64,000 nt of DNA, taken from Mucilaginibacter pankratovii. GTDB taxonomy: Bacteria > Bacteroidota > Bacteroidia > Sphingobacteriales > Sphingobacteriaceae. The notes under the pieces were generated by a model that did not search any database, was not told where the DNA came from, and was given only the letters and a program-made list of their open reading frames with translations. The stretch covers positions 186,001 to 250,000 of the forward strand of contig NZ_JACWMY010000007.1 in NCBI RefSeq assembly GCF_014773265.1, given 5' to 3'. The translations under genes and the position numbers were made by a program. This document shows positions 37,301-50,487 of the stretch, piece after piece (position 1 is the stretch's first letter; each line of letters opens with the position of its first letter).

Positions 37301-39509
37301 AAATCTGTCGAAACTAACCTTGGGTGGGGGTATTGCCAATGACGAAGTGCCCACTGTTTTGCAGCAAATTATGGCTTACCGCGAAGAGCAGGACATTATT
37401 GAAAAAGCCACCTGGCTGCCTCTAATGCTGGGCTTTATGTGGCAAAACGGCGAGTGCGATTGGGATAAAATTGAAAGCAGTTGCCAGCAGGTCATCCAAA
37501 TGAACCGCGCGGCTGCCGGTATAGTGGGCAGCGCCGGTTTAAAAGCATGGCGCTCGGCATTGGCCGCTGAGTTTTCGGAAGGAAGCAAAGCATACGCCAC
37601 GGAGCATAAAAGACTTCTGGACGATTACCTGCAAACCACCAGTAATATAGCCGAAGTAGAAACAGTGCTGCACAACTTGTTAGGCATTAATTTCAGTTCG
37701 ATGCAAAACAATGTTGCTGATTGGAAAAGCGAACTTTCTCAAACTGCAGCAGGCTGGCTGCAGCATTTGGATGGACTAAAAGATTGGTACAACTGGCTGG
37801 CCGTAAAAGAGCGCGCCCTCGAAACAGACCTGCAGCCGCTGATAGCTGCTTATGAAAATGGCGCGGTGCAAAGCGCGGACCTCGTAATGCAGTTTGAGAA
37901 AGGGTTTTATCGCTCTGCGGCCGAATACATTATCGAGCGTACACCGCAGCTGGCAACCTTCAATTCCAGTCTGTTCCAGGAAAAAATAAAACGGTTCAGG
38001 GAGATCAGCAGCAATTTTGAAAAGTTGACCAAGCAGGAGCTTTACGCCCGCCTGGCCGCGCGGATCCCATCATTTACGCAGGAGGCATCGCAAAGTTCGG
38101 AGATAGGGATGCTGCAGCGTACTATCCGCAACAATGGCAGGGCCATGTCTATCCGCAAGATTTTCGATGCCATTCCAAACCTGCTGCACCGCCTTACGCC
38201 CTGTATGCTGATGAGTCCGATCTCGGTGGCCCAATATTTTGATGCAGATAGTGTGAAGTTCGACCTGGTTGTGTTCGACGAGGCGTCGCAAATGCCTACC
38301 TGCGAAGCCATTGGCGCCATTGCCCGCGGCACCACCGTAATTGTAGTAGGCGACCCTAAACAAATGCCGCCGACCAACTTCTTCTCCACTAATAATATCG
38401 ACGAGGAGAATATTGATAAGGAAGACCTGGAAAGCATTTTGGATGATTGCCTGGCCCTATCCATGCCATCGCACCACCTGTTGTGGCATTACCGCAGTAA
38501 GCACGAAAGTCTCATCGCTTTCAGCAACGCTAAGTACTATGATAATAAGCTGCTCACATTCCCCTCTACCGACGATATTGTGAGTAAGGTAACTTTTGTA
38601 AAGGTGGAGGGCTATTATGATAAAGGCAGGTCGCGACAGAATAAATTTGAAGCAAAGGCCATTGTTGATGAAGTGATCCGCAGGCTCTCAGACCCAGTGC
38701 TGGCGTTACGGAGCATGGGTATCGTAACCTTTAGTTCGGTACAACAAATATTGGTAGAGGACCTGCTGACCGATGTATTTAAACTGCGGCCCGACTTGGA
38801 ACGTATAGCCCTGGAATGCGAGGAACCTATCTTTATCAAAAACCTGGAGAACGTACAGGGAGATGAACGCGATGTTATCCTGTTCTCCATCGGTTACGGC
38901 CCCGATGAAAACGGAAAAGTAAGCTTAAACTTTGGCCCGATAAACCGCGAAGGGGGCTGGCGGAGGCTGAATGTGGCTGTATCGCGCGCGCGTTACGAAA
39001 TGAAGGTATTCTCTACCTTAAACTCCGACCAGATAGACCTCAATCGTTCCGGCTCCGAAGGTGTGGCAGGGCTTAAAGCATTCCTGGCTTATGCCGAAAA
39101 GGGGAAAACGGCATTGCCTGTACGGGTTGCTGAAAAAAGCGGGCAGGGGCCATCTTTCGAAAACTTGATAGCTGCCGAGTTGCGGAAGCAGGGGTACGAA
39201 GTGCATACACAAATAGGCTGCTCGGCCTACAAAATAGACCTGGGTATTGTTGATAAGGAAAACCCGACGGGGTATATTTTAGGGGTACTTACTGATGGCA
39301 AAAGCTACCAAAGCGCCAAAACATCGCGCGACAGGGAGATAGTACAAGTAGATGTGCTGAAACTGCTGGGCTGGAACATTCACAAAATATTCTCTACCGA
39401 ATGGTGGGAAAAACCGGACAAGGTAATTGGCGGCATTGTAACAGCCATACGCCTTGCCGAAGAAAATAAAAGTAAAACGGCGCAAACACCGATATCGCCA
39501 CGGCATTAA
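34305..39509 (+). CDS. Second DUF4011-SF1 helicase-Vsr protein (no DUF3320)
   Basis: 1734 aa, collinear with the 20356-26121 protein over almost its whole length. N-terminal beta-rich part; transglutaminase-like C223 and H249 at the same residue numbers as in the paralog; DUF4011 ('LWERKLLDLTLRNSLLNIR'); Walker A GPPGTGKS (688-695); DEASQ (1325-1329); 'VAVSRARYEM'; and a Vsr-like domain (GCSAYKIDLGIV...TEWWEKPDK). It ends about 25 residues after the Vsr-like domain, so DUF3320 is absent. The nucleotide sequence has diverged widely while the protein stays similar, so this is not a recent duplication. It lies outside attR, with a Cdd1-like operon directly upstream. Presumably antiphage. Confidence 0.9.
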   Translation: MSSQTLPKTEVNFDYSPVINFALQQNHVPVIRELAIKNVSGYDWQNVTVELSSEPDFAALWKQSIGTLRDQESHPFKSISPLISSKYLAELTERVSGKFILTITADEEIVYQEHYGVDLLAYDQWNGLGLLPEMLAAFITPNHPQIVKIILAASAILEKWTGNPSFDEYQSRNPNRVRKQMAAIYEAIAAMQFIYCTVPASFEEGGQRIRLADTIFTNKLANCLDLSLLYAACLEAVGIHPIITMVKDHAFAGGWLIDESFADAVNDDPSLITKRAADGINDIVMVEATCMNAGNNTSFDDAVSSADQKLLRISDFLLFIDIKRARFSGIRPLPLRVPTPNGWEIVEEARQTRENALPGDIFVGQKLVHSEKIDISKQRLWERKLLDLTLRNSLLNIRITKSVIQFITINAGKLEDALSAGTEFQVLAKPSDWDNNPRDTGVYEALHQTDPIADLVKNELGQRRLRTYLSEMELGNSLTNLYRSSRLSIEENGANTLYVGLGLLRWFETDLSERPRYAPILLLPVEIIRKSAQKGYVIRTREEETIMNITLLEMIRQDFGITIGGLETLPKDESGVDVKLIFNIIRQAIMTKSRWDIEEQALLGTFSFSKFILWNDIHNNADKLARNKVVASLISGKLEWQPEEDTSGMAIEDGQLHPKNVALPISSDSSQLQAILTSGEGKSFVLHGPPGTGKSQTITNIIANALYAGKKVLFVAAKKAALDVVESRLEAIGIGAFCLELHSNKSKKSAVLEQLKAATEKVQKDAPDNFVSEAERLYSLRNELNVYVAALHEKYPFGYSLFDLFTQYSQLPEAEDRVIFPSESIQTLTPDHVIVWRDVANDLQAAGALIGSPKGHPLKAINVKQYTLQLKQEAGKFIEELLGFLKTLTDQTDIVSDIIKVGGLVKSKEQELGGLAQLLSNTADFPASLMQVDAPEQNLAQVIGIAIHGKQRDALRRGLLARFQKEILNFPAAQTLSEWNIAAGKWFLPRWLTQRSLLKNLSKLTLGGGIANDEVPTVLQQIMAYREEQDIIEKATWLPLMLGFMWQNGECDWDKIESSCQQVIQMNRAAAGIVGSAGLKAWRSALAAEFSEGSKAYATEHKRLLDDYLQTTSNIAEVETVLHNLLGINFSSMQNNVADWKSELSQTAAGWLQHLDGLKDWYNWLAVKERALETDLQPLIAAYENGAVQSADLVMQFEKGFYRSAAEYIIERTPQLATFNSSLFQEKIKRFREISSNFEKLTKQELYARLAARIPSFTQEASQSSEIGMLQRTIRNNGRAMSIRKIFDAIPNLLHRLTPCMLMSPISVAQYFDADSVKFDLVVFDEASQMPTCEAIGAIARGTTVIVVGDPKQMPPTNFFSTNNIDEENIDKEDLESILDDCLALSMPSHHLLWHYRSKHESLIAFSNAKYYDNKLLTFPSTDDIVSKVTFVKVEGYYDKGRSRQNKFEAKAIVDEVIRRLSDPVLALRSMGIVTFSSVQQILVEDLLTDVFKLRPDLERIALECEEPIFIKNLENVQGDERDVILFSIGYGPDENGKVSLNFGPINREGGWRRLNVAVSRARYEMKVFSTLNSDQIDLNRSGSEGVAGLKAFLAYAEKGKTALPVRVAEKSGQGPSFENLIAAELRKQGYEVHTQIGCSAYKIDLGIVDKENPTGYILGVLTDGKSYQSAKTSRDREIVQVDVLKLLGWNIHKIFSTEWWEKPDKVIGGIVTAIRLAEENKSKTAQTPISPRH

Positions 39510-39704
39510 CTAAGAACTTAGCCCCGACGCTTATCGATAGCGATCAGGGCTAATCAATTTGGCTCAACTTAACAAAAATATAATTGGTATCGTGATTTTC
39601 TACACAAATTATCGCCGAAAAAGGCCTGTAATTTGCTGTAAATAGCTTTTTTAATAAAAAGTCTATTAATTCTATAGTTTTTATAGTTTATTTAAAATCT
39701 TTTA

Positions 39705-39712
39705 TATATTTG
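39705..39712 (+). promoter_or_regulatory. -7 element of the sulfatase/SusCD operon
   Basis: TATATTTG, a perfect TAnnTTTG, 17 bp before the leader-peptide ATG and ~355 bp before susC. It sits at the end of a 200-bp AT-rich gap after the helicase gene. In that gap only an imperfect hairpin (AGCCC...GGGCT, ~39521-39552, without a T run) is visible. Confidence 0.55.
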
Positions 39713-39729
39713 CGCCGTAAACAATCGCA

Positions 39730-39813
39730 ATGAAAGCAATTTTACGTTCCCCCGTTTCTACATTCAACCACATACCCATGCATTCTGCAGTGTGTATGTG
39801 TTGCTGTTGTTAA
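39730..39813 (+). CDS. Cys-rich leader peptide (27 aa)
   Basis: A complete short ORF ATG...TAA whose C-terminus is HSAVCMCCCC: five of the last six codons are Cys (TGT ATG TGT TGC TGT TGT before TAA). It lies just downstream of a perfect -7 promoter element and ~250 bp upstream of susC, in a 5' leader with several alternative hairpins. Runs of one amino acid at the end of a short ORF are typical of attenuation leaders. Cys would make the operon sense cysteine/sulfur supply, which fits the sulfatases it precedes. Translation itself is not shown by the sequence. Confidence 0.7.
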   Translation: MKAILRSPVSTFNHIPMHSAVCMCCCC

Positions 39814-40066
39814 TCATTCCCAATAATATTCCCGCAAGCAAATAAGGGATACGGTGTGCAAATACCGTAAGCGAATTTCGCACGCAAAAACATTTAATTA
39901 CCCCAAAAAAATAATAGAAAAGATGACCTGATAAGAAGATCTGTATCAACCGCTAAGGAAGCTTTAACGGTTAGTCGGATGACAGGGCAGCAGTAACGCC
40001 AATCATACACCGCCCCTCATCCCCGGTTTTACCAACATAAATATTGACATAAAAAATTTTAAAGAT
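39814..40066 (+). promoter_or_regulatory. Structured 5' leader RNA (candidate attenuator)
   Basis: Between the leader stop and susC are hairpins ACGGT-GTGCAAAT-ACCGT (~39855-39872), GCGAA-TTTCGC (~39876-39887), with GTGTGC/GCACGC able to pair across both, and AACCGCTAA-GGAAGCT-TTAACGGTT (39948-39972). No U-rich terminator is obvious, so control could act on elongation or translation. I looked for SAM and cobalamin riboswitch cores and did not find them. Confidence 0.4.
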
Positions 40067-43000
40067 ATGGAAATATATCTCCATGCCAAGTACTATTTAT
40101 ATAGATCGGGCACATATATACGAACGGGCACCCTCGCCCTTTTATTGCTGCCTTTAACACTATTTGCACAAACCCCTACTCAGCCAACCATCAACTCTAA
40201 GCTGTATGGTAAGGTGATAGATGCCCGCACCAAAGAAACACTGCCGGGCGCAACAGTAAGTATTAAAGGCGTTACCAATACCACAACCACCAACGTCAAC
40301 GGCGATTTTGAGCTCATCACCGGCCAAAAATTCCCATACACCATTGTGGTGAGTTACGTAAGTTATAAAACGCAGGAGGTATATGTAAACGGAAGCCCCG
40401 TTACCGTTGGGCTGGAATATGATGCCCGCCAGCTGAATGATGTGGTTGTAGTAGGCTATGGCACCCAAAAACGTGCCGACGTAACGGGCGCGGTATCATC
40501 AGTATCAAAAACCAATTTACAGCAGCCGGTTACTTCTTTCGACCAGGCGCTTAAAGGGGCCGCACCCGGTGTGCAGGCCACCCAAACATCCGGCGAACCG
40601 GGTGGCGGGGTGAGTATCCGTATCCGCGGTGGCAGCTCTATCCAGGGTGGTAACGAACCGCTTTATGTGATAGACGGCTTCCCTATTTATAACTCAAATA
40701 CCACCGCAGGTACCTTAAGCGGTACGCCAACCAACCCGCTCAGCAGCATCAACCCCGGAGATATCGAGAGCATCGACATCTTGAAAGATGCTTCGTCCAC
40801 CGCTATTTACGGTTCGCGCGGTGCAAATGGCGTGGTTATCGTTACCACCAAAAAAGGCAAGGCCGACAGGAGCAGCATCATTTACGAAGGTACTTTCGGT
40901 GTGCAATCGCTTCGTAAAAAGGTGGATGTATTGAACGCTCATGATTTTGCCATTTTAAGGAATGCGGCCCTTTACGATGCTACCCCTGCAAAAGGCGAGT
41001 TTCAGTACCAAACACAGGCACAGATAGACCAGTTAGGTGCCGGTATCGACTGGCAGGGAGCAGCTTTCCGCAACGCGCCTACGCAAAACCATAATTTAAC
41101 CATCAGCGGTGGTAACGTAAAGGTACGCTACCTGATCTCGGGAAATTACCTTAACCAGGACGGGATCATCAAAAACACCGACTTTAGAAGGTATGGTTTG
41201 CGTACCAATATAGATGCACAGCCTTTTAGCCGCCTTAAACTGAGCGCCAGCCTGAGCCTCAGTAAAGCGGACGCTAATGTAGCACCGGGAGGTATTGTAG
41301 GTTCCCTTCTGATAATGCCGCCTACAGCTACAATTTATGACCCTAACGGTGGGTATACACTGCGCAACCCTTTTGAAAATATTTTTGCTAACCCCATTGC
41401 AACCATTACCGAGCAGATCAACAAATCAACCACTAACCGGGTGCTGGGTACCGCCTTTGGCGAATACAAAATTATTGAAGGACTGAACCTGAAAGTGCTG
41501 TTTGGTACCGATGTAAACAACATTGCCGAGAAGAGCTATATCCCGAGCACCATTTACGAGGGCAGCCTTACCCATGGCTCGGCAGGTCGCGGCTCGCTCA
41601 ACAGCTATTCCTGGTTAAATGAAAATACGTTGAGCTACGATAAAGCTTTTGGCAAACACGCCATCAATGTTTTAGCCGGCTTTACGCAGCAAAGCTTCAA
41701 CAGGGAAAACTTTACGGCGGCGTCGCAAAATTTTGTTACCGATGCGCTTACGTACAACGGGCTTGGTGGTGGTTCTACACTGATTGCGCCTACATCTGAT
41801 GCTACCAACTGGAACCTGAACTCGTACCTGGGCCGGGTAAATTATAACTACGACCGCCGGTATTACCTTACCGCCAGTCTGCGTGCAGATGGGTCATCCC
41901 GTTTTGGAGCAGGTAATAAATGGGGATATTTCCCATCGGCTGCCGCTTCATGGAACATCAGCAATGAGCACTTTTTCGAAAATCTTAACAAAACTATCAG
42001 CGACTTTAAGTTGAGGGCCAGCTACGGTAGAACGGGTAATCTGGAGATAGGGGAATACCAGTCGCTGGCTACGCTGGGCACTTATACCTATGTTATTGGC
42101 AACAACATCATCACTGGTTTTGCGCCAAACCGTATAAGCAATGATAAGTTGAGCTGGGAAACAACCGACCAGTATAACGCCGGTATCGATATTGGTTTTT
42201 GGGATAACCGCTTATTATTTAACCTGGACGCCTACTATAAAAAAACCAGCAACCTGCTGCTGAATGTACAGATCCCATGGACATCGGGCTACGATGCATC
42301 GCTGCAAAACTTTGGCTCGGTAGAGAACAAGGGTATTGAATTGGCGGTAGCCACCCGCAACCTCATTGGCGTGTTTAAATGGAACACACAGTTAAACATC
42401 TCGTTCAACCGCAATAAAGTTTTGAGTATTGGTAACGGTGCCAGCAGCTATATTTCGGGTAATTACATCATCCGTGTAGGCCAGCCTTTAGGCAGCTTTT
42501 ATGGCAGCGTAACCGATGGTATCCTGCAAACCGGGGAGGAAGCCGCGAAGGGTAAATACACCGGTAACGCGGTGCCAAAAGCCGGCGACAGGCTTTACAA
42601 GGATATTAATGGCGATGGTACGTTTACAACCGCCGCGGATAAGGATATTGTGGGTAATGCGCAGCCCGATTTTCTTTTCGGTGTAACCAACACTTTCTCT
42701 TATAAAGGTTTCGACCTGCTGGTATTCCTGCAAGGCTCGTATGGTAACCAGATCCTGAACACCAACCGCCAAAACCTGGAGCTGTTCACCGGCCAGCAAA
42801 ATGCCGCGGCATCTGCGTTGGATCGCTGGACGCCCACAAACCCCAGCCAAACCATCCCAAGGGCAAAGCTCGACCCTGCACCCGTATTTTCCAGCCGCTT
42901 TATCGAGAACGGCTCTTATCTGCGGGTGAAGAACGTAAGCCTGTCGTACAACCTGCCTAAAAACCTCATTAGCAAGGCTGGTTTGGCAAATGCAAGCATC

Positions 43001-43150
43001 TACGTATCGGGCCAAAACCTGCTTACCTGGACAAAATACACCGGTTTCGACCCGGAAGTTACTTCCGGCAGCAATGTGTCGCCCGGTACCGATTCGGGCA
43101 TTTACCCGGTTGCGCGTGTGTACAACTTAGGCGTACGGGTTGGCTTTTAA
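40067..43150 (+). CDS. susC: SusC/RagA-type TonB-linked outer-membrane transporter
   Basis: 1027 aa. A hydrophobic export segment lies at ~22-36 (TLALLLLPLTLFAQ), then a CarboxypepD-reg-like domain (~46-120, 'LYGKVIDARTKETLPGATVSIKG'), a TonB box/plug beginning 'VVVGYGTQKRADVTGAVSSV', 'YVIDGFPIYN', 'ILKDASSTAIYGSRGANGVVIVTTKKG', and a barrel ending in Phe ('YNLGVRVGF'). With SusD it imports an oligosaccharide or glycan, here probably a sulfated one given the downstream sulfatases. First large gene after the Cys-rich leader; susD follows after 24 bp. Confidence 0.95.
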   Translation: MEIYLHAKYYLYRSGTYIRTGTLALLLLPLTLFAQTPTQPTINSKLYGKVIDARTKETLPGATVSIKGVTNTTTTNVNGDFELITGQKFPYTIVVSYVSYKTQEVYVNGSPVTVGLEYDARQLNDVVVVGYGTQKRADVTGAVSSVSKTNLQQPVTSFDQALKGAAPGVQATQTSGEPGGGVSIRIRGGSSIQGGNEPLYVIDGFPIYNSNTTAGTLSGTPTNPLSSINPGDIESIDILKDASSTAIYGSRGANGVVIVTTKKGKADRSSIIYEGTFGVQSLRKKVDVLNAHDFAILRNAALYDATPAKGEFQYQTQAQIDQLGAGIDWQGAAFRNAPTQNHNLTISGGNVKVRYLISGNYLNQDGIIKNTDFRRYGLRTNIDAQPFSRLKLSASLSLSKADANVAPGGIVGSLLIMPPTATIYDPNGGYTLRNPFENIFANPIATITEQINKSTTNRVLGTAFGEYKIIEGLNLKVLFGTDVNNIAEKSYIPSTIYEGSLTHGSAGRGSLNSYSWLNENTLSYDKAFGKHAINVLAGFTQQSFNRENFTAASQNFVTDALTYNGLGGGSTLIAPTSDATNWNLNSYLGRVNYNYDRRYYLTASLRADGSSRFGAGNKWGYFPSAAASWNISNEHFFENLNKTISDFKLRASYGRTGNLEIGEYQSLATLGTYTYVIGNNIITGFAPNRISNDKLSWETTDQYNAGIDIGFWDNRLLFNLDAYYKKTSNLLLNVQIPWTSGYDASLQNFGSVENKGIELAVATRNLIGVFKWNTQLNISFNRNKVLSIGNGASSYISGNYIIRVGQPLGSFYGSVTDGILQTGEEAAKGKYTGNAVPKAGDRLYKDINGDGTFTTAADKDIVGNAQPDFLFGVTNTFSYKGFDLLVFLQGSYGNQILNTNRQNLELFTGQQNAAASALDRWTPTNPSQTIPRAKLDPAPVFSSRFIENGSYLRVKNVSLSYNLPKNLISKAGLANASIYVSGQNLLTWTKYTGFDPEVTSGSNVSPGTDSGIYPVARVYNLGVRVGF

Positions 43151-43174: not shown

Positions 43175-44647
43175 ATGAAAAAATTAATATATATCACATT
43201 GCTTGGCACGGCGCTAATGGCCGTTTCCTGCAAAAAACTGGATGAAAAGCCCGAGGCGCTATTGGTATCGGGCGAATTTTACCAGGACCAGGCACAAGCC
43301 ACCGCAGCGGTTACAGCTGCTTACCGCAAACTTTATGATAGCGGGCAATCATTATACAACAGCTTATTTCAAATAGGCGTAGAGATGGCAACCGACGATT
43401 ACGAGGCCGGACCGAGGGCACGTAACGCTGCGGTTAGAGCGATCTCGGGCCTTACGCACGATTCGTCTAACGACCGGATGGAGCAGCTTTGGAAACAAAG
43501 TTACGACGGGATTAACGTGGCAAATATTGCCGTTGACAAGATAGCGCTGATAGACGCCGCCAAGATTGATGAAGCCGTAAGAGTCCGCCTCATCAACGAA
43601 GCGAAGTTTCTGCGGGCGCTGCACTATTTTAATTTGGTACGATGGTTTGGTGGGGTGCCCTTGGTACTGCATCAGCCAGCCGATCTTTCGCCGGATAACC
43701 TGTATGTAAGCAAAGCTACCGAAGATGAGGTTTACGCCCAGATCATCACTGATCTGAAAGCCGCCGAGGCCTTGCCGGCGCAATATGCTGCTGTAGATGT
43801 GGGCAGGGCCACTTCGGGCGCGGTAAAAAGCCTGCTCTCCAAAGTTTACCTCACGCATAAACAATGGCAATTGGCAGCCGAAAAAAGTAAAGAGGTGATA
43901 GACAGTAAGGTGTACCAGCTTTTCACCGATTTTGCCGATGTGTTTAACGTGGCCACTAAAAACGGCAAAGAGCATATCTTTTCCGCCCAGTTTAAAGGTA
44001 ACTCTGGTTATCAGGGGAATAGTTTAGCCAGCCGCTCGGCACCGGCAGATGTGCCCGGCATCAATGGCGATTATGCAGATGCACTGCACGTTGCGGGTGG
44101 TTTGTATGCCTCATACAGTGCCGATGATAAGCGCCGCGCCGTAACTTTTGTTACCCAGATAGTGAGCCCCGTCAACGGTAACCTTTATACGCTGGCTACG
44201 CCGCAATTCAATAAATATTACGACCCCGCGGTGGTGGGCAACCAGGGGCAGTCGTCAAAAAACCTGCCTATCATCCGCTATGCGGAGGTACTATTGATCT
44301 ACGCAGAAGCCTTGAACGAGTGGAAAGGCGCCCCAACCGCAGAAGCCTATGCTGCTATTGATGAGGTGCGCACACGGGCAGGCATCGCTAAACTGCAGGA
44401 CACAACGCCGGGGCTTAACCAGTCCGATTTTAGGGACGCGGTTTTCCAGGAAAGGCGCAAGGAGTTTGTGTACGAATACCAACGCTGGTTCGATCTGGCA
44501 CGCCGTGGGCCCGATTATTATATCAAAGTGTTGAAAGCAGCAGGCAAAACGCTGGCCGCACCCCGCCACGTACATTTTCCAACGCCACTGCGCGAAATTA
44601 ACCTGAATCCCAACCTGAAACAACACCCGGATTGGGTAGGTTTCTGA
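43175..44647 (+). CDS. susD: SusD/RagB-type surface glycan-binding lipoprotein
   Basis: 490 aa lipoprotein. Signal peptide with lipobox LMAVSC (lipidated C19), SusD-like TPR core ('FLRALHYFNLVRWFGGVPLVL', 'VKSLLSKVYLTHKQW') and C-terminal RagB/SusD domain ('PIIRYAEVLLIYAEALNEW', 'FQERRKEFVYEYQRWFDLARRG'). All family landmarks are intact. It caps the SusC barrel and delivers the substrate. Located between susC and the first sulfatase in the same operon. Confidence 0.95.
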   Translation: MKKLIYITLLGTALMAVSCKKLDEKPEALLVSGEFYQDQAQATAAVTAAYRKLYDSGQSLYNSLFQIGVEMATDDYEAGPRARNAAVRAISGLTHDSSNDRMEQLWKQSYDGINVANIAVDKIALIDAAKIDEAVRVRLINEAKFLRALHYFNLVRWFGGVPLVLHQPADLSPDNLYVSKATEDEVYAQIITDLKAAEALPAQYAAVDVGRATSGAVKSLLSKVYLTHKQWQLAAEKSKEVIDSKVYQLFTDFADVFNVATKNGKEHIFSAQFKGNSGYQGNSLASRSAPADVPGINGDYADALHVAGGLYASYSADDKRRAVTFVTQIVSPVNGNLYTLATPQFNKYYDPAVVGNQGQSSKNLPIIRYAEVLLIYAEALNEWKGAPTAEAYAAIDEVRTRAGIAKLQDTTPGLNQSDFRDAVFQERRKEFVYEYQRWFDLARRGPDYYIKVLKAAGKTLAAPRHVHFPTPLREINLNPNLKQHPDWVGF

Positions 44648-44678: not shown

Positions 44679-46322
44679 ATGAAAAAATATTTAAACATTG
44701 GCTTTAGCGCAGCGGCAGCAACACTGCTTTTAGCGACCGCGCCAGCGCTTGCACAAAAAGCAAGCCGCCCCAATATCGTGCTGGTATTGGTAGATGACCT
44801 TGGTTTCTCGGATATAGGCCCTTACGGCGCCACCGAACTGGAAACCCCCAACCTGGATAAACTTGCCGCGCAAGGTTTGCGCTTAAAGGAGTTTTATAAC
44901 AACTCTATTTGCGCGCCAACCCGCGCCTCGCTGCTCACCGGGCAGTACCAGCATAAGGCGGGCGTAGGTTACTTTAACGTAAACTTGGGCTTACCGGCTT
45001 ACCAGGGTTTTTTAAACCACGAATCGCTTACGCTTGCGGAAGTGCTGAAAACGGGAGGATACTCTACCTTAATGGCCGGTAAATGGCACGTTGGCGATGA
45101 TAAGGACCAGTGGCCAAACCAGCGCGGGTTTGATAAATTCTTTGGCTTTATTGGCGGCGCCAGCAACTATTACGAGATAGGCAGCGAAGAAAAAGCTACC
45201 GCACCCCTCGTAAAAAACAATCAGCCGTACTACCTGCAGCCAGGTAAATACCTCACCGAGGAGATCACCAATAACGCGCTCGGCTTTTTAGATGAACAGG
45301 ATAAAGAGAAGAAACCCTTCTTTTTATACCTGGCCTACAACGCGCCGCACTGGCCGCTGCAAGCCCTGCCCGAAGATATAGCCAAGTATAAAGGCAAATA
45401 CCAGGTAGGCTGGGATTCGCTGAGGCAGTTGCGGTATCAAAATGCCATCAAAAAAGGATTGATTGATCCAAACCAAAAAATAAGCGCGCACGATCCGCAG
45501 TTGAAACCATGGAAAACACTTACTTATGATGAGCAACAATACTGGCAAACCCGCCAGGAAGTGTTCGCGGCGATGATAGACCATGTGGACCAGGGGATAG
45601 GCCGGCTGTTAGCCAAACTGAAAGAACTGAAAAAAGATCAGAATACGCTGATCATCTTCATTTCGGATAACGGCGCGCAGGGTGGTAATGGGTTAAGGCC
45701 TTATACACAGCGCACCACCGGGCCGGTAGGTACAGCGGGTTCTTACGAAACGCAGAACAGTAACTGGTCGCAAACCGGCAATTCTCCGCTGCGTAACTAT
45801 AAAGATTCGCCTTACGAGGGTGGTATCAGTGCGCCATTCATTGCCTGGTATCCAAAATTGATCCAACCCAATACTATTCGCCAGGGAACCGCGCACCTGA
45901 TAGATCTTGCCCCCACTTTTTATGAACTGGCAGGCGTAAAATATCCCGAGGCATATAAAGGTGTAAAAGCTAATACCCTCGCAGGCAAAAGCCTGGTGCC
46001 CTTGCTTACCGGTAAAGCCGACCATGTAAACCGTGGCGAACCCCTGTTTTGGGAGCGCAGCGGCAAGCAAGCCGTAAGGGATGGCAAGTGGAAATTAATA
46101 TTACCGGCAGGCGCCAACCCACAGTACGAATTGTACGACCTGGAGGCCGACCGCGCGGAAAACAACAACCTGGCAGCCGCCAACCCCGAAGTAGTAACCC
46201 GTTTGAAAGCAGCCTACAAAGAATGGGCGGCCAAAAACGACGTGGTAGACTATAATAAACTAAGACCGGCACCAGCGGGCCGGTCGGCCGCCGCCCCATC
46301 TGGCAGACGTAACAACGATTAA
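44679..46322 (+). CDS. Arylsulfatase-type sulfatase (Cys-type)
   Basis: 547 aa with a signal peptide (~1-26, ending ALAQ). 'RPNIVLVLVDDLGFSDIGPYG' supplies the metal-binding Asp pair. The sulfatase signature CAPTRASLLTGQY has the formylglycine-forming C78 in C-x-P-x-R. 'GKWHVG' and 'IFISDNGAQ' are the further active-site motifs. It cleaves sulfate esters in the periplasm after maturation by a formylglycine-generating enzyme encoded two genes downstream. The tail is Pro/Ala/Arg-rich (GRSAAAPSGRR). Highly similar in layout to the next gene, suggesting a tandem duplication with substrate divergence. Confidence 0.93.
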   Translation: MKKYLNIGFSAAAATLLLATAPALAQKASRPNIVLVLVDDLGFSDIGPYGATELETPNLDKLAAQGLRLKEFYNNSICAPTRASLLTGQYQHKAGVGYFNVNLGLPAYQGFLNHESLTLAEVLKTGGYSTLMAGKWHVGDDKDQWPNQRGFDKFFGFIGGASNYYEIGSEEKATAPLVKNNQPYYLQPGKYLTEEITNNALGFLDEQDKEKKPFFLYLAYNAPHWPLQALPEDIAKYKGKYQVGWDSLRQLRYQNAIKKGLIDPNQKISAHDPQLKPWKTLTYDEQQYWQTRQEVFAAMIDHVDQGIGRLLAKLKELKKDQNTLIIFISDNGAQGGNGLRPYTQRTTGPVGTAGSYETQNSNWSQTGNSPLRNYKDSPYEGGISAPFIAWYPKLIQPNTIRQGTAHLIDLAPTFYELAGVKYPEAYKGVKANTLAGKSLVPLLTGKADHVNRGEPLFWERSGKQAVRDGKWKLILPAGANPQYELYDLEADRAENNNLAAANPEVVTRLKAAYKEWAAKNDVVDYNKLRPAPAGRSAAAPSGRRNND

Positions 46323-46342: not shown

Positions 46343-48001
46343 ATGAAAAAAGTATTAACGCTATTGCTGATAACCGCCGCCATAAACGGTTATGCGCAAA
46401 ATAACAACACCAGCAGCAAACCCAATATCATCCTTATTTTGGCGGATGACCTGGGCTATTCAGACATCGGCGCTTATGGCTCCGAAATTAAAACCCCCAA
46501 CCTGGACAGGCTGGCAACCGAAGGGCTTCGCTTAAAGGAATTTTATAACAACTCCATTTGCGCGCCAACCCGTGCCTCGCTACTTACCGGGCAATACCAG
46601 CATAAAGCTGGGGTGGGTTATTTTGCCAACGATTTGGGTTCGCCGGCTTACCAGGGCTATATCAACCAGGAATCGCTAACACTTGCCGAGGTGCTGAAAG
46701 GCGCGGGCTACACCACCTTGATGGCTGGCAAGTGGCACGTAAGCGGCAAGGGGCTAAGCTTTCCCTGGCAGCGCGGGTTCGACCATTCATTGCTTTCAGA
46801 AAACGGCAGCTACTTTGACCAGGGCGATTACAACGGCGGCCCCAAACGCCCTTACTTTGAGGATGGTAAGCCTTACCCGCTGGAAGCCGGCAAATATTAT
46901 CAAACGGATGTGATCACCGAGCATGCGGTAAAATACCTGGATGAACAGGGCAAGGATAAAAAGCCATTCTTTTTATACCTGGCCTACACCGCGCCACACT
47001 GGCCGCTGCAGGCACTGCCCGAAGACATAGCCAAATACAAAGGCAGGTATGATAAAGGCTGGGACGATTTGCGTAAAGAACGCTTTGCCAAACAGAAGGA
47101 ATTGGGCATAGTGGGTAAAGACGCCGTGTTATCAAATAAGGATGCCGATATCTACGATTGGAGCCGCCTGTCATACGACCAGAGATCGCAATGGACCGCA
47201 AAAATGGAAGTCTTCGCGGCGATGGTTGACCGGATGGACCAGGGCATAGGCCAGGTGCTGGATAAGCTTAAACAAACCGGGCAGGATAAGAACACCCTGG
47301 TGATCTTTATCTCGGATAACGGCGCCCCTGCCGAAGATCTGATAAAATGGCATAACGGCGCAACACGTAACACCGGCCCGGTTGGTACCATTGGTTCGTA
47401 CGAATCGCAAGGGAAAAACTGGTCGTATGCCTCCAATACGCCATTCTTAGCCTTTAAGGATTATGTGTACGAGGGCGGTATCAGCTCGCCATTCATTGCC
47501 TGGTATCCATCCAAAATTAAACCGGGAACCATCAGCAAAGGTACCGGCCACCTGATAGACCTGGCACCCACCTTTTATGAGTTAGCCGGTGCCGCTTACC
47601 CTAAAAAGTATAAAGATATTGTGCCTAACGCCCTGCCGGGCAAAAGCCTGCTGCCGGTACTGTACGGGCAGGATAATGAAGTGAAACGCGGCGAACCCCT
47701 GTTTTGGGAGCGCGCGGGTAACCGTGCTGTGAGAGACGGTAAATGGAAACTGGAATCGCATTACCCATCCTACACCTGGGAACTTTACGATGTGGAGAAC
47801 GACCGCGGCGAAACCCGTGATGTGGCACGCCAAAATCACGATGTCGTAAGCCGCTTATCGATTGCTTATTTTCAATGGGCCAAAAAAGTTGGTTCGGTTG
47901 ATTTTAGCACGATTGAAGACCGCGAACCGCAAACGATGAAGGATTACCGCAAAAGCAAGTTGCAGGACGTAGTTGCCCCAGGCGGCCCGGGCTTGCAATA
48001 A
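46343..48001 (+). CDS. Second arylsulfatase-type sulfatase (Cys-type)
   Basis: 552 aa, signal peptide ~1-19 (ING-YAQ). Metal-binding 'PNIILILADDLGYSDIGAYG', signature CAPTRASLLTGQY with C73 as the formylglycine precursor, 'GKWHVSG' and 'VIFISDNGAP'. It starts 20 bp after the previous sulfatase and precedes the FGE gene by 23 bp. The substrate-binding middle region ('LSFPWQRGFDHSLLSENGSYFDQGDYNGG') differs from the first paralog, so a different sulfate position or sugar is plausible. Confidence 0.93.
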   Translation: MKKVLTLLLITAAINGYAQNNNTSSKPNIILILADDLGYSDIGAYGSEIKTPNLDRLATEGLRLKEFYNNSICAPTRASLLTGQYQHKAGVGYFANDLGSPAYQGYINQESLTLAEVLKGAGYTTLMAGKWHVSGKGLSFPWQRGFDHSLLSENGSYFDQGDYNGGPKRPYFEDGKPYPLEAGKYYQTDVITEHAVKYLDEQGKDKKPFFLYLAYTAPHWPLQALPEDIAKYKGRYDKGWDDLRKERFAKQKELGIVGKDAVLSNKDADIYDWSRLSYDQRSQWTAKMEVFAAMVDRMDQGIGQVLDKLKQTGQDKNTLVIFISDNGAPAEDLIKWHNGATRNTGPVGTIGSYESQGKNWSYASNTPFLAFKDYVYEGGISSPFIAWYPSKIKPGTISKGTGHLIDLAPTFYELAGAAYPKKYKDIVPNALPGKSLLPVLYGQDNEVKRGEPLFWERAGNRAVRDGKWKLESHYPSYTWELYDVENDRGETRDVARQNHDVVSRLSIAYFQWAKKVGSVDFSTIEDREPQTMKDYRKSKLQDVVAPGGPGLQ

Positions 48002-48024: not shown

Positions 48025-49167
48025 ATGAAAAGGATCAAAGTATTAAGTTTAGGTATTGTTGCCGCGATAGCGGCAACAAGCCTTGCTTTTGTAGAAAAAC
48101 CAGCTAAACCAATAACCCCTGCCAGGCCCATAGTAAAGAAAGTTGCGATATGCTGCGAATCGAATATCCCGAAGCGGTTTCCATCGCTTACGGTGAGCGT
48201 GACCTCCGCACTGCCTACGGTGAAATCACATAGCGGTATGGTGTGGATAAGCGGCGGCTCGTACGCTATGGGCGCAGATAATAAGCAGGCCGCAGATGAC
48301 GAATATCCAAAGCATCGCGTAAGCGTAAAGGGCTTTTGGATGGATGTTAGCGAGGTGACCAACGCGCAATTTGAAAATTTTGTGAAAGCCACAGGTTATG
48401 TAACTATAGCGCAGCGCAAACCCGACTGGAACGAACTGAAAAAGCAATTACCCCCCGGAACGCCAAAACCAGCCGATGATGTGCTGGTAGCGGCGTCGCT
48501 GGTTTTTAAACAACCAAAGGGTGCGGTTCCGTTAAACGATTACAGCCAATGGTGGGATTGGAAAAAAGGTGCCGATTGGAAACATCCGCATGGCCCGGGC
48601 AGCGATATAAAAGGCAAAGAGAATTTCCCGGTGGTGCATATCTCCTGGTTTGATGCAGTTGCCTATTGCAAATGGGCAGGCAAGCGCTTACCTACCGAGG
48701 CAGAGTGGGAGTGGGCCGCCCGCGGCGGGCGGGACGGTAATGTGTACCCCTGGGGTAATGAACCAGTTGACGAAGGAAAGGCCAAAGCCAATACCTGGCA
48801 AGGGGATTTCCCTAATATCAACACGGTGAAGGATAAATTCTTCTACACCGCACCAACGCGGTCTTTTGCCGCCAACGGCTATGGATTGTATGATATGGCC
48901 GGCAATGTGTGGGAATGGTGCGCCGATTATTACCGCAACGATTATTATAAAACCACCACAAGGGTAGGAGGCATTGCCGACCCAAAAGGGCCTGCAGACA
49001 GCTACGACCCTGCCGAACCTTATACCAAAAAACGCGTGATACGCGGCGGTTCTTTTTTGTGTAACGATAGCTATTGCTCGGGCTACCGCGTGGCAAGGAG
49101 GATGAAGAGTACGGAAGACAGCGGTATGGAGCATTTGGGATTTAGATGCGTGGCTGATAATAAATAG
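48025..49167 (+). CDS. Formylglycine-generating enzyme family protein
   Basis: 380 aa. The FGE-sulfatase domain spans ~70-378: 'MVWISGGSYAMGADNKQAADDEYPKHRVSVKGFWMDVSEVTNAQFENFV', 'LPTEAEWEWAARGG', 'YGLYDMAGNVWEWCADYY' and 'VIRGGSFLCNDSYCSGYRVARR'. Both redox-active cysteines (C346 and C351, equivalent to the catalytic pair) are present, so it should be an active oxidase converting the sulfatase Cys to formylglycine. An N-terminal hydrophobic segment suggests periplasmic export. Its position directly after two Cys-type sulfatases supports this role. Confidence 0.92.
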   Translation: MKRIKVLSLGIVAAIAATSLAFVEKPAKPITPARPIVKKVAICCESNIPKRFPSLTVSVTSALPTVKSHSGMVWISGGSYAMGADNKQAADDEYPKHRVSVKGFWMDVSEVTNAQFENFVKATGYVTIAQRKPDWNELKKQLPPGTPKPADDVLVAASLVFKQPKGAVPLNDYSQWWDWKKGADWKHPHGPGSDIKGKENFPVVHISWFDAVAYCKWAGKRLPTEAEWEWAARGGRDGNVYPWGNEPVDEGKAKANTWQGDFPNINTVKDKFFYTAPTRSFAANGYGLYDMAGNVWEWCADYYRNDYYKTTTRVGGIADPKGPADSYDPAEPYTKKRVIRGGSFLCNDSYCSGYRVARRMKSTEDSGMEHLGFRCVADNK

Positions 49168-49183
49168 GCGTACATATAATAAA

Positions 49184-49255
49184 GGCGGGGTGGCCGAGTG
49201 GTTAGGCGGAGGTCTGCAAAACTTCTTACAGCGGTTCGAATCCGCTCCCACGCCT
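49184..49255 (+). tRNA. tRNA-Cys(GCA) with a bulged acceptor stem
   Basis: The D arm GCC/GGC, anticodon stem GAGGT/ACTTC with loop CTGCAAA (GCA), T arm AGCGG/CCGCT with TTCGAAT and discriminator U73 (a Cys identity base) are all normal. The acceptor stem pairs GGCG-GGG with CCC-a-CGCC, leaving A49250 as a single-base bulge. The RNA is 72 nt, one longer than expected. It lies 16 bp after the FGE gene. Confidence 0.85.
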
Positions 49256-49270
49256 CATAATATCTTGCAT

Positions 49271-49298
49271 AAAAAAGCCCACCTGTTGGCAGGTGGGC
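49271..49298 (-). terminator. Terminator of the minus-strand CMD/TonB operon
   Basis: GCCCACCTG-TTGG-CAGGTGGGC (49277-49298) has a 9-bp perfect GC-rich stem. The A6 run at 49271-49276 becomes the U tract on the minus strand, so it stops transcription arriving from the CMD genes; on the plus strand there is no T run after the stem. Confidence 0.8.
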
Positions 49299-49375: not shown

Positions 49376-49924
49376 CTATTTGTAAACACTGCTTTGGTAA
49401 CCGTCCTCTGCGCGTTGCGGGGCGCGGTTTACATAAAACTGCCTGTCCTGTGGGGCCCATGTAGCTAAGCCATCCACATAGCGGTTAAACATACAGAAGG
49501 ACGCGGCTATCAATACCGTATCGTGGATCTCTTTATCTGTAGCGCCTTCTGCCCTGGCGGCAGCAACCTGTTCTTCGGTTACGGCTTTACCGCCTTTCTG
49601 CACGCTGGCTGCAATTGCCAGCAGGGTTTTGATTTTGGGCGACAGATCCGCTGAGGTGAAGTCATTTTTAATGGCGTCTATCTCATCTATATTGCATCCC
49701 AGGTAATGCCCGGCCAACGCGCCGTGTACATTCTGGCAAAAAAAGCAATCATTTAAGTAAGATACATACGCGCCTATCAGTTCGCGTTCGCCGCGACTAA
49801 GCGTGTTATCATCATCGCGAAGCAACACTTCTGCAAGGGCATTCAGCGGAGCTTCGGTTTTAGGGCTGTAAGCCATCAGGCCGCGGATGCCGGGTAATTC
49901 GTTCTCTAAATTAATGTGTGCCAT
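49376..49924 (-). CDS. AhpD/carboxymuconolactone-decarboxylase-family protein
   Basis: 182 aa, CMD/AhpD fold. The redox motif is DCFFCQNVH (C60-x-x-C63, H67), with the usual helix 'ERELIGAYVSYLND' before it and 'ATDKEIHDTVLIAASFCMFNRYVDGLATW' after. Such proteins are often peroxidase-related thiol enzymes. It is the last gene of a minus-strand series, 11 bp after a close paralog, and is followed by a strong terminator. A third copy is at 58157. The substrate is unknown. Confidence 0.9.
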   Translation of the reverse strand: MAHINLENELPGIRGLMAYSPKTEAPLNALAEVLLRDDDNTLSRGERELIGAYVSYLNDCFFCQNVHGALAGHYLGCNIDEIDAIKNDFTSADLSPKIKTLLAIAASVQKGGKAVTEEQVAAARAEGATDKEIHDTVLIAASFCMFNRYVDGLATWAPQDRQFYVNRAPQRAEDGYQSSVYK

Positions 49925-49935
49925 TGGCTTAATGT

Positions 49936-50487
49936 TTAAGTGGTTGCCGGTTTTTGTGGTAGCGCATAACCCTGTATCATGCGTTTACCCATTTCTTTAT
50001 AAGCTTCGGGATCGGTGGGAGTGAGGCTTGCCAGCCCATCTACGTAGCGGTTAAACATGCTGAAGGCGGCGGCTATCAGCACCGCATCATGGATCTCCTT
50101 ATCAGTAGCATCCTGCGCTTTCGCGGCATCAATATCTTCCTGTTTTACCTGTGTACCCAGGATCTGCACTTTGCCGGCGATATTGAGTAACGCTTTTAGT
50201 TTAGGACTAATTTCTGCGGCGTTCATATCTTTTAAGACATCATCTACCGTGGTATCGTCCTCGCCATACAAACACCTTGCGGCGGCGGCGTGGCTGCTGC
50301 TACAAAACACGCACTCGTTGCGTTTAGATACATATGCGGCTATCAGCTCACGGTCGGCCTGCGATATGGGCGATTCTCCGCGCAGCAAAACCTCCGCCAG
50401 ATCGTACAAATGCTTACCCGTTTCGGGCCTGAACATTACCAGCGATCTGATACCCGGTACGCCTTCGGGAACTTGTATGTGTGCCAT
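49936..50487 (-). CDS. AhpD/carboxymuconolactone-decarboxylase-family protein (paralog)
   Basis: 183 aa. C59-x-x-C62 and H66 in ECVFCSSSH; same layout as its neighbour ('DRELIAAYVSKRNE', 'ATDKEIHDAVLIAAAFSMFNRYVDGLASL'). Both begin MAHI-x-x-x-x-x-x-PGIR-x-L and clearly arose by tandem duplication. The C-terminal tail differs. It starts 27 bp after the S41 peptidase stop. Whether the pair works as hetero-oligomer subunits is open. Confidence 0.9.
   Translation of the reverse strand: MAHIQVPEGVPGIRSLVMFRPETGKHLYDLAEVLLRGESPISQADRELIAAYVSKRNECVFCSSSHAAAARCLYGEDDTTVDDVLKDMNAAEISPKLKALLNIAGKVQILGTQVKQEDIDAAKAQDATDKEIHDAVLIAAAFSMFNRYVDGLASLTPTDPEAYKEMGKRMIQGYALPQKPATT

Follow-up and report, generated by a model that had tools for sequence, protein, structure and literature searches.

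The question raised by this locus is whether a short cysteine-rich reading frame ahead of a SusCD-sulfatase operon could report the supply of charged Cys-tRNA, and by what route such a signal would reach the operon. The window, by which we mean the whole stretch of 64,000 nucleotides of Mucilaginibacter pankratovii DNA that was analysed, carries the leader and operon in the following order:

39705..39712, + strand: -7 element TATATTTG, read from the sequence and found at a comparable position in most relatives of the R1 type described below
39730..39813, + strand: leader ORF of 27 codons plus stop with the tail CMCCCC, from its translation and family comparison
40067..43150, + strand: susC (TIGR04056)
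43175..44647, + strand: susD (PF07980/PF14322)
44679..46322, + strand: sulfatase (PF00884) with a CAPTR motif in the sequence
46343..48001, + strand: second sulfatase (PF00884), also with a CAPTR motif in the sequence
48025..49167, + strand: FGE-sulfatase domain protein (PF03781), sulfatase maturation-like
49183..49254, + strand: tRNA-Cys (GCA), called by ARAGORN and the Rfam tRNA model

The original prediction placed a 27-codon Cys-run ORF right after a -7 element, and this is confirmed both by the coordinates and by shuffling. Specifically, 39730-39813 translates as MKAILRSPVSTFNHIPMHSAVCMCCCC with the C-terminal end HSAVCMCCCC, its ATG lies 17 nt 3' of TATATTTG, which we take to be a Bacteroidota-type -7 element, and its stop lies 253 nt from the susC start at 40067. 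The pattern MCCCC followed by T[AG][AG] has one match in the window versus none in 100 dinucleotide-shuffled windows, and the window has, as read from its sequence, a short ORF with clustered Cys codons in its putative 5' leader region.

Family models also bear out the predicted SusCD-sulfatase operon, identifying SusC, SusD, two sulfatases whose CAPTR we presume to be the active-site motif, and the FGE domain protein. The operon has the SusC/SusD pair of a polysaccharide utilisation locus and shares SusC, SusD and sulfatases with such loci. It differs from them in that scanning its five proteins with family models revealed neither a glycoside hydrolase nor a lyase, and in that its leader is of a type common to sulfur genes. 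That the operon frees sulfate from glycans is unproven; from its gene content it looks built for the uptake and cleavage of sulfate esters. The tRNA-Cys gene begins 15 nt past the FGE gene, the last protein gene of the operon, a distance that leaves no room for a promoter between them, although a promoter within the FGE gene is possible. At 49277-49298 lies a hairpin that resembles a terminator on the - strand but not on the + strand. Facing the operon are two AhpD-like peroxidase-related genes of the CMD family (49376-50487, - strand).

We looked for relatives of the leader across genomes. A protein search with the 27-aa peptide gave only weak matches, none better than E 0.16 and spread over 14 of 60 other Mucilaginibacter genomes, because the leader body varies; DNA patterns of the Cys tail worked instead. 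In 151 family genomes CMCCCC plus T[AG][AG] occurs ten times, in eight genomes that are all Mucilaginibacter, and the reversed control pattern has no match. The MCCCC-stop pattern is found in 81 of 149 Mucilaginibacter genomes versus 1 of 149 for its reversed control, this strict pattern being absent from the other 68. Among 105 distinct Cys-tail places that were parsed, 102 have the CCCC-stop ending and 48 are followed by a metY-like gene; four of the 105 are unconvincing as leaders, since the frame continues beyond the tail in two (L029, L105) and has six codons in two more (L057, L125). Some leaders carry 1-5 residues after the Cys codons (for example L322, L325, L326, L327, L331, L374, L386 and L388). 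Cys-tail matches were present in 15 of 395 genomes in a phylum search, and a scan of 84,980 genomes returned at least 116 matching stretches; many matches of these two scans, mainly those outside Bacteroidota, look fortuitous. When five leader peptides were compared with NCBIfam, no model fitted and the single match was meaningless (E 1.7). An MRM stretch recurs ahead of the tail in many leaders, among them those of L296, L303, L308, L035, L143 and L150, and also outside the genus.

The genes behind these leaders are largely concerned with sulfur. It was originally suggested to look for Cys-rich short ORFs upstream of other Bacteroidota sulfur genes; the Cys-tail searches turned them up before metY, metX-like, cysH and OsmC genes among others, and the polyCys uORF is conserved ahead of sulfur and cysteine genes. 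Targets above the NCBIfam cut-offs are metY, cysH and uroporphyrinogen-III C-methyltransferase; OsmC and metX-like genes (best NCBIfam matches under cut-off) are also found, as are a peroxiredoxin-like protein, PhyH, and the S10 and M14 peptidase families. At loci without a Pfam or NCBIfam scan the gene type was read from the N-terminus. One locus from another genus of the class (L277) has the leader followed by susC, susD and three sulfatase homologues. The SAM riboswitch model RF00162 matches at gathering score upstream of the leader at all 28 Mucilaginibacter metY loci tested (48 are known), and outside the genus at 6 of 6 metY-type, 1 of 1 metX-type and 3 of 3 OsmC-type loci; it is absent from two cysH-type, one methyltransferase and two susC loci. 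The window's own genome has such a tandem, with a SAM riboswitch (L020, 1292-1403), then a Cys-run leader, then metY. At the window leader itself an Rfam scan detected no SAM riboswitch (RF00162), and SAM control was rejected there. RNAalifold gave only a weak consensus for 46 of the 48 metY leaders; by eye, and uncounted, many have an ACACGT...ACGTGT-type hairpin after the stop. The tRNA-Cys gene, the RNA element and operator-like motif described below, and this riboswitch and leader tandem in the same genome are observations beyond the original prediction.

Between the leader and susC lies a conserved element, which we call R1:

39940..40072, + strand: conserved structured RNA element R1, extending over the susC start (model and covariation)
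39948..39972, + strand: R1 hairpin 1, AACCGCTAAGGAAGCTTTAACGGTT (covariation in relatives)
39977..40022, + strand: R1 hairpin 2 with the conserved loop GTAACGCCAATCA (covariation and a fresh fold)
39987..39997, + strand: segment inside hairpin 2 that pairs with the Cys run at 39800-39810, strongly in the window, not generally

The R1 model was built from alignment A1 of window-type leaders, and the Cys codons lie outside it. It matches 93 places in 64 of 149 Mucilaginibacter genomes. Among the 30 best-scoring loci fetched, the susC start could be read in 27, and six of those, one being the window, had contributed to building R1. Each of the 27 carries an ATG ORF with three or more Cys among its final nine codons; these ORFs end 157-278 nt 5' of susC and encode 26 distinct peptides. 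The same best-of-all-ATG-ORFs procedure gave a mean of 0.45 loci (maximum 2) in shuffles and none of the 27 when applied to the reverse strand. TG-starting codons in these 27 tails are TGT (95), TGC (42) and TGG (4), and the residues ahead of the tail are variable. At 20 lower-scoring places the Cys ORF is present in 18 (shuffles mean 0.15, maximum 1), so that a Cys-ending short ORF lies upstream at 45 of the 47 R1 places read in the genus (47 of 93). The two exceptions (L392, L393) are weak matches and both follow a long reading frame. Six R1 matches lie in other genera of the family: two (L363, L365) have at least three Cys, L364 and L367 have CCCN (by eye) and CC tails respectively, L368, the weakest match (E 8e-4), has no Cys tail, and L366 is unreadable. 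The weak matches L392, L393 and L368 stand before susC-like genes, after a frame with what by eye is a FecR-like end. R1 may have a role wider than Cys leaders.

The fold of R1 is backed by covariation. Across 33 matches, of which 27 are distinct, both partners have changed in 13 of the 22 pairs and 89.3% of cells are paired, counts that lean towards the model's structure since the alignment was fitted to it; none of 500 shuffles attains either value, and slid structures drop to 16-42%. Refolded from scratch with RNAalifold, this alignment again formed hairpins 1 and 2; 9 of its 18 pairs had both partners changed, and the covariation term was small (-0.35 kcal/mol). By this comparative evidence R1 is a structured RNA. 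Rfam, including its riboswitches and T-box, has no match at the window leader or R1, and the R1 model in turn has no match at 12 other leader loci, indicating that Cys leaders exist without R1. When three hairpin 2 loops were compared with tRNAs, those of the window and L259 paired best with the window's operonic tRNA-Cys and that of L260 preferred a Leu and the Lys tRNA; pairing between loop and tRNA is no more than an idea.

Operons headed by R1 again largely concern sulfur, with gene content called by similarity to family-assigned reference proteins. Sulfatase homologues are present in 13 of 20 such operons, 11 of these with an FGE homologue; four others encode a sulfite dehydrogenase homologue and a YeiH-like transporter, and three have neither sulfatase nor sulfite dehydrogenase. 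A tRNA-Cys gene lies within four of the 20 (L350, L351, L354, L362).

The association with tRNA-Cys extends beyond R1 operons. A similarity search and ARAGORN put the number of tRNA-Cys genes in the window's genome at five or more. Across 21 leader loci of about 10-16 kb each, five have a tRNA-Cys gene downstream on the same strand: the window, L259, L270 and L271 by ARAGORN, and L263 by similarity only. Other tRNAs lie near the leaders of L260 (opposite strand) and L274 (five, beside a translation-factor-like gene). The reverse test took 20 tRNA-Cys neighbourhoods, being the best matches to the window tRNA plus the window's own genome, and eight of them proved to have a Cys leader 5' of the tRNA and on its strand: L293 (tail CCCCG), L296, L297, L298, L300, L303, L308 and L311, the last of which was known before the count. 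The opposite strand of L296 has one stray leader-like ORF without a tRNA-Cys partner. At L297, L298, L300 and L303 the leader stands directly before tRNA-Cys with no ORF of at least 100 aa between. Since the output of a tRNA gene cannot be translation initiation, at least these four leaders, if functional, act on transcription or processing.

Several further features of these tRNA neighbourhoods were observed. An accessory tRNA-Cys class (window 49183-49254; L286-L292, L296-L306) has by eye an apparent conserved G-A mismatch in the acceptor stem; some of its genes were missed by ARAGORN and several are paired with a second tRNA-Cys type. Cysteine desulfurase-like genes lie near tRNA-Cys at L293, L299, L301, L302, L309, L310 and L312, of which only L293 was family-tested (PF00266, with NCBIfam NifS under cut-off). 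L304, L305 and L306 have tandem tRNA-Cys genes after a carbonic-anhydrase-like gene (judged from its N-terminus), and no Cys leader was found there.

How, then, might the leader act? It had been proposed as an attenuator sensing Cys-tRNA through alternative hairpins before susC. In its classical trp-type form, Cys stalling would decide whether an antiterminator or an intrinsic terminator forms in 39814-40066. The window seems to favour this reading, as its Cys run at 39800-39810 pairs strongly with 39987-39997 in hairpin 2 (z -4.2, with 0 of 100 shuffles as strong). However, this pairing is not general: over 25 R1 loci, the window included, the mean z is -0.39 and two fall below -2 (L337 at -2.8), and among 102 leaders of all kinds 10 are at or below 5 of 100 shuffles where about five are expected. 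Moreover, a consensus scan of the window alone found no intrinsic terminator on the + strand in 39500-40100, and six S10-type leaders lie just 40-63 nt from their gene. With no terminator bearing a U tract found in that scan and no conserved pairing of the control codons, the classical intrinsic-terminator attenuator is not supported, and we consider it very unlikely. Of the original prediction, comparison supports the conserved Cys-codon leader and does not support alternative-hairpin attenuation with an intrinsic terminator; as to the hairpins, two that covary are indeed present, and the Cys-run pairing is a strong feature of the window that its relatives do not share in general. R1 could instead be the real switch, a riboswitch or a protein- or tRNA-binding RNA, with the uORF merely modulating it. 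Its structure, strong conservation, well conserved loop, lack of an Rfam match and two weak occurrences without a Cys leader agree with such a role, which is nonetheless unlikely given that a Cys leader accompanies 45 of the 47 genus R1 loci read and is found without R1 at the 12 other loci.

A different layer of control could reside in the promoter, which has the following feature:

39663..39677, unstranded: operator-like palindrome CTATTAATTCTATAG, matching the pattern CTAY-N5-8-[AGT]TAG, 5' of the -7 element

A DNA-binding regulator at this motif, perhaps of the Rrf2 family, might be the main control and the leader a minor layer. The motif is found in 25 of 27 R1-type leader promoters (shuffles mean 1.4, maximum 4) and in 24 of 47 other non-metY promoters, or 30 of 53 when six R1-type loci are included (shuffles of those 53: mean 2.6, maximum 6), and one leader operon (L271) encodes an Rrf2 protein. 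However, Rrf2 is present in 26 of 31 relatives, so its link to the motif is weak and binding of Rrf2 to it a guess. Furthermore, metY loci keep their Cys tails even though the motif occurs in none of the 140-nt stretches before 45 of these tails; the metY promoter itself should lie further up, 5' of the riboswitch and outside those 140 nt. We regard a regulator as main control as doubtful. It is hardly credible that the peptide is the active agent, say as a small protein that binds metals or thiols: the Cys-rich tail would suit this, but body sequence and length differ widely among groups while the Cys codons stay constant, and the ORF keeps to the 5' flank of sulfur genes.

The uORF and its conservation, its gene associations, R1 before susC and a common promoter motif are all present in the DNA. 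Since the groups share the codon tail and not the body, and since the genes are mostly ones that would relieve sulfur shortage, stalling for want of Cys-tRNA is the simplest reading. Going by sequence comparison, the uORF is very likely Cys-responsive, and the best explanation, which we hold to be probable, is that its Cys codons gauge charged tRNA-Cys and that stalling raises expression of a sulfur-scavenging operon. This suggests that these bacteria would gauge sulfur by a ribosome short of charged Cys-tRNA. When Cys-tRNA is scarce, a ribosome would stall at the end of the uORF, and stalling would switch the operon on, raising SusCD uptake, the sulfatases, the sulfatase maturase-like protein and the extra tRNA-Cys. 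The signal would pass via R1, either by blocking Rho-dependent termination or by freeing the susC start; we judge the chances even that the output is transcriptional rather than translational. As most leaders have their Cys codons right beside the stop, a stalled ribosome would cover the RNA just 3' of the stop, and a TnaC-like, Rho-type mechanism therefore fits at least as well as a trp-type attenuator. The E. coli tnaC peptide senses free tryptophan. The likeness is that a ribosome may stall at the end of the ORF and so block Rho; the difference is that tnaC senses through its peptide, whereas in the window leader the codons are the likely sensor.

Related leaders are known elsewhere. Polycysteine uORFs of mycobacteria were reportedly described by Canestrari and colleagues in 2020, and are leaderless by the title of that work, whereas the window ATG follows its -7 element at 17 nt. 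The available portions of two texts add that mycobacterial polyCys uORFs are mentioned with a citation of Canestrari 2020 (PMC13236596), and that cys/cbs leaders of Actinobacteria have no conserved terminator, with Rho suggested and E. coli tnaC cited as a model (PMC1262725). Like the window leader, these are short ORFs with Cys codons near the stop and sulfur genes downstream; unlike it, they belong to another phylum and, in those portions, none is reported before SusCD-sulfatase operons, before tRNA-Cys or after SAM riboswitches. In Rhodobacterales, uORFC-8-2 before cysS likewise has Cys codons and inferred tRNA-Cys sensing, but the number of such codons is two, mostly at positions 14-15, and a U run is interpreted there as an intrinsic terminator (PMC8632094, excerpted text). 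For Flavobacterium psychrophilum, the excerpt of PMC9723704 mentions, in no detail, clues for leader-peptide attenuation before amino-acid operons. Among the literature matches listed, no title or abstract opening reports a Bacteroidota Cys leader, a leader peptide ahead of tRNA-Cys, or a tandem of SAM riboswitch and Cys leader. As far as could be seen, the principle is known, and the phylum, the targets and the combination are new.

Taken together, we give even chances to a Bacteroidota-wide Cys-tRNA regulon in which polyCys leaders control sulfur assimilation, SusCD operons for sulfate esters or sulfite, and, with no intervening protein gene, accessory tRNA-Cys, with metY under a two-input gate shared with a SAM riboswitch and susC reached via the new RNA class R1. 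If this is true, the sensed tRNA-Cys is itself a product of the circuit, and the metY tandem is a gate that reads methionine and cysteine status together, a ready system for RNA logic gates. The regulon would reveal how Bacteroidota sense sulfur status, in a detail not described in the accessible parts of the matching literature, and would provide tRNA genes whose own charging is read by the leader peptide that controls them. It would also put SusCD-sulfatase operons under the control of nutritional sulfur rather than of glycans.
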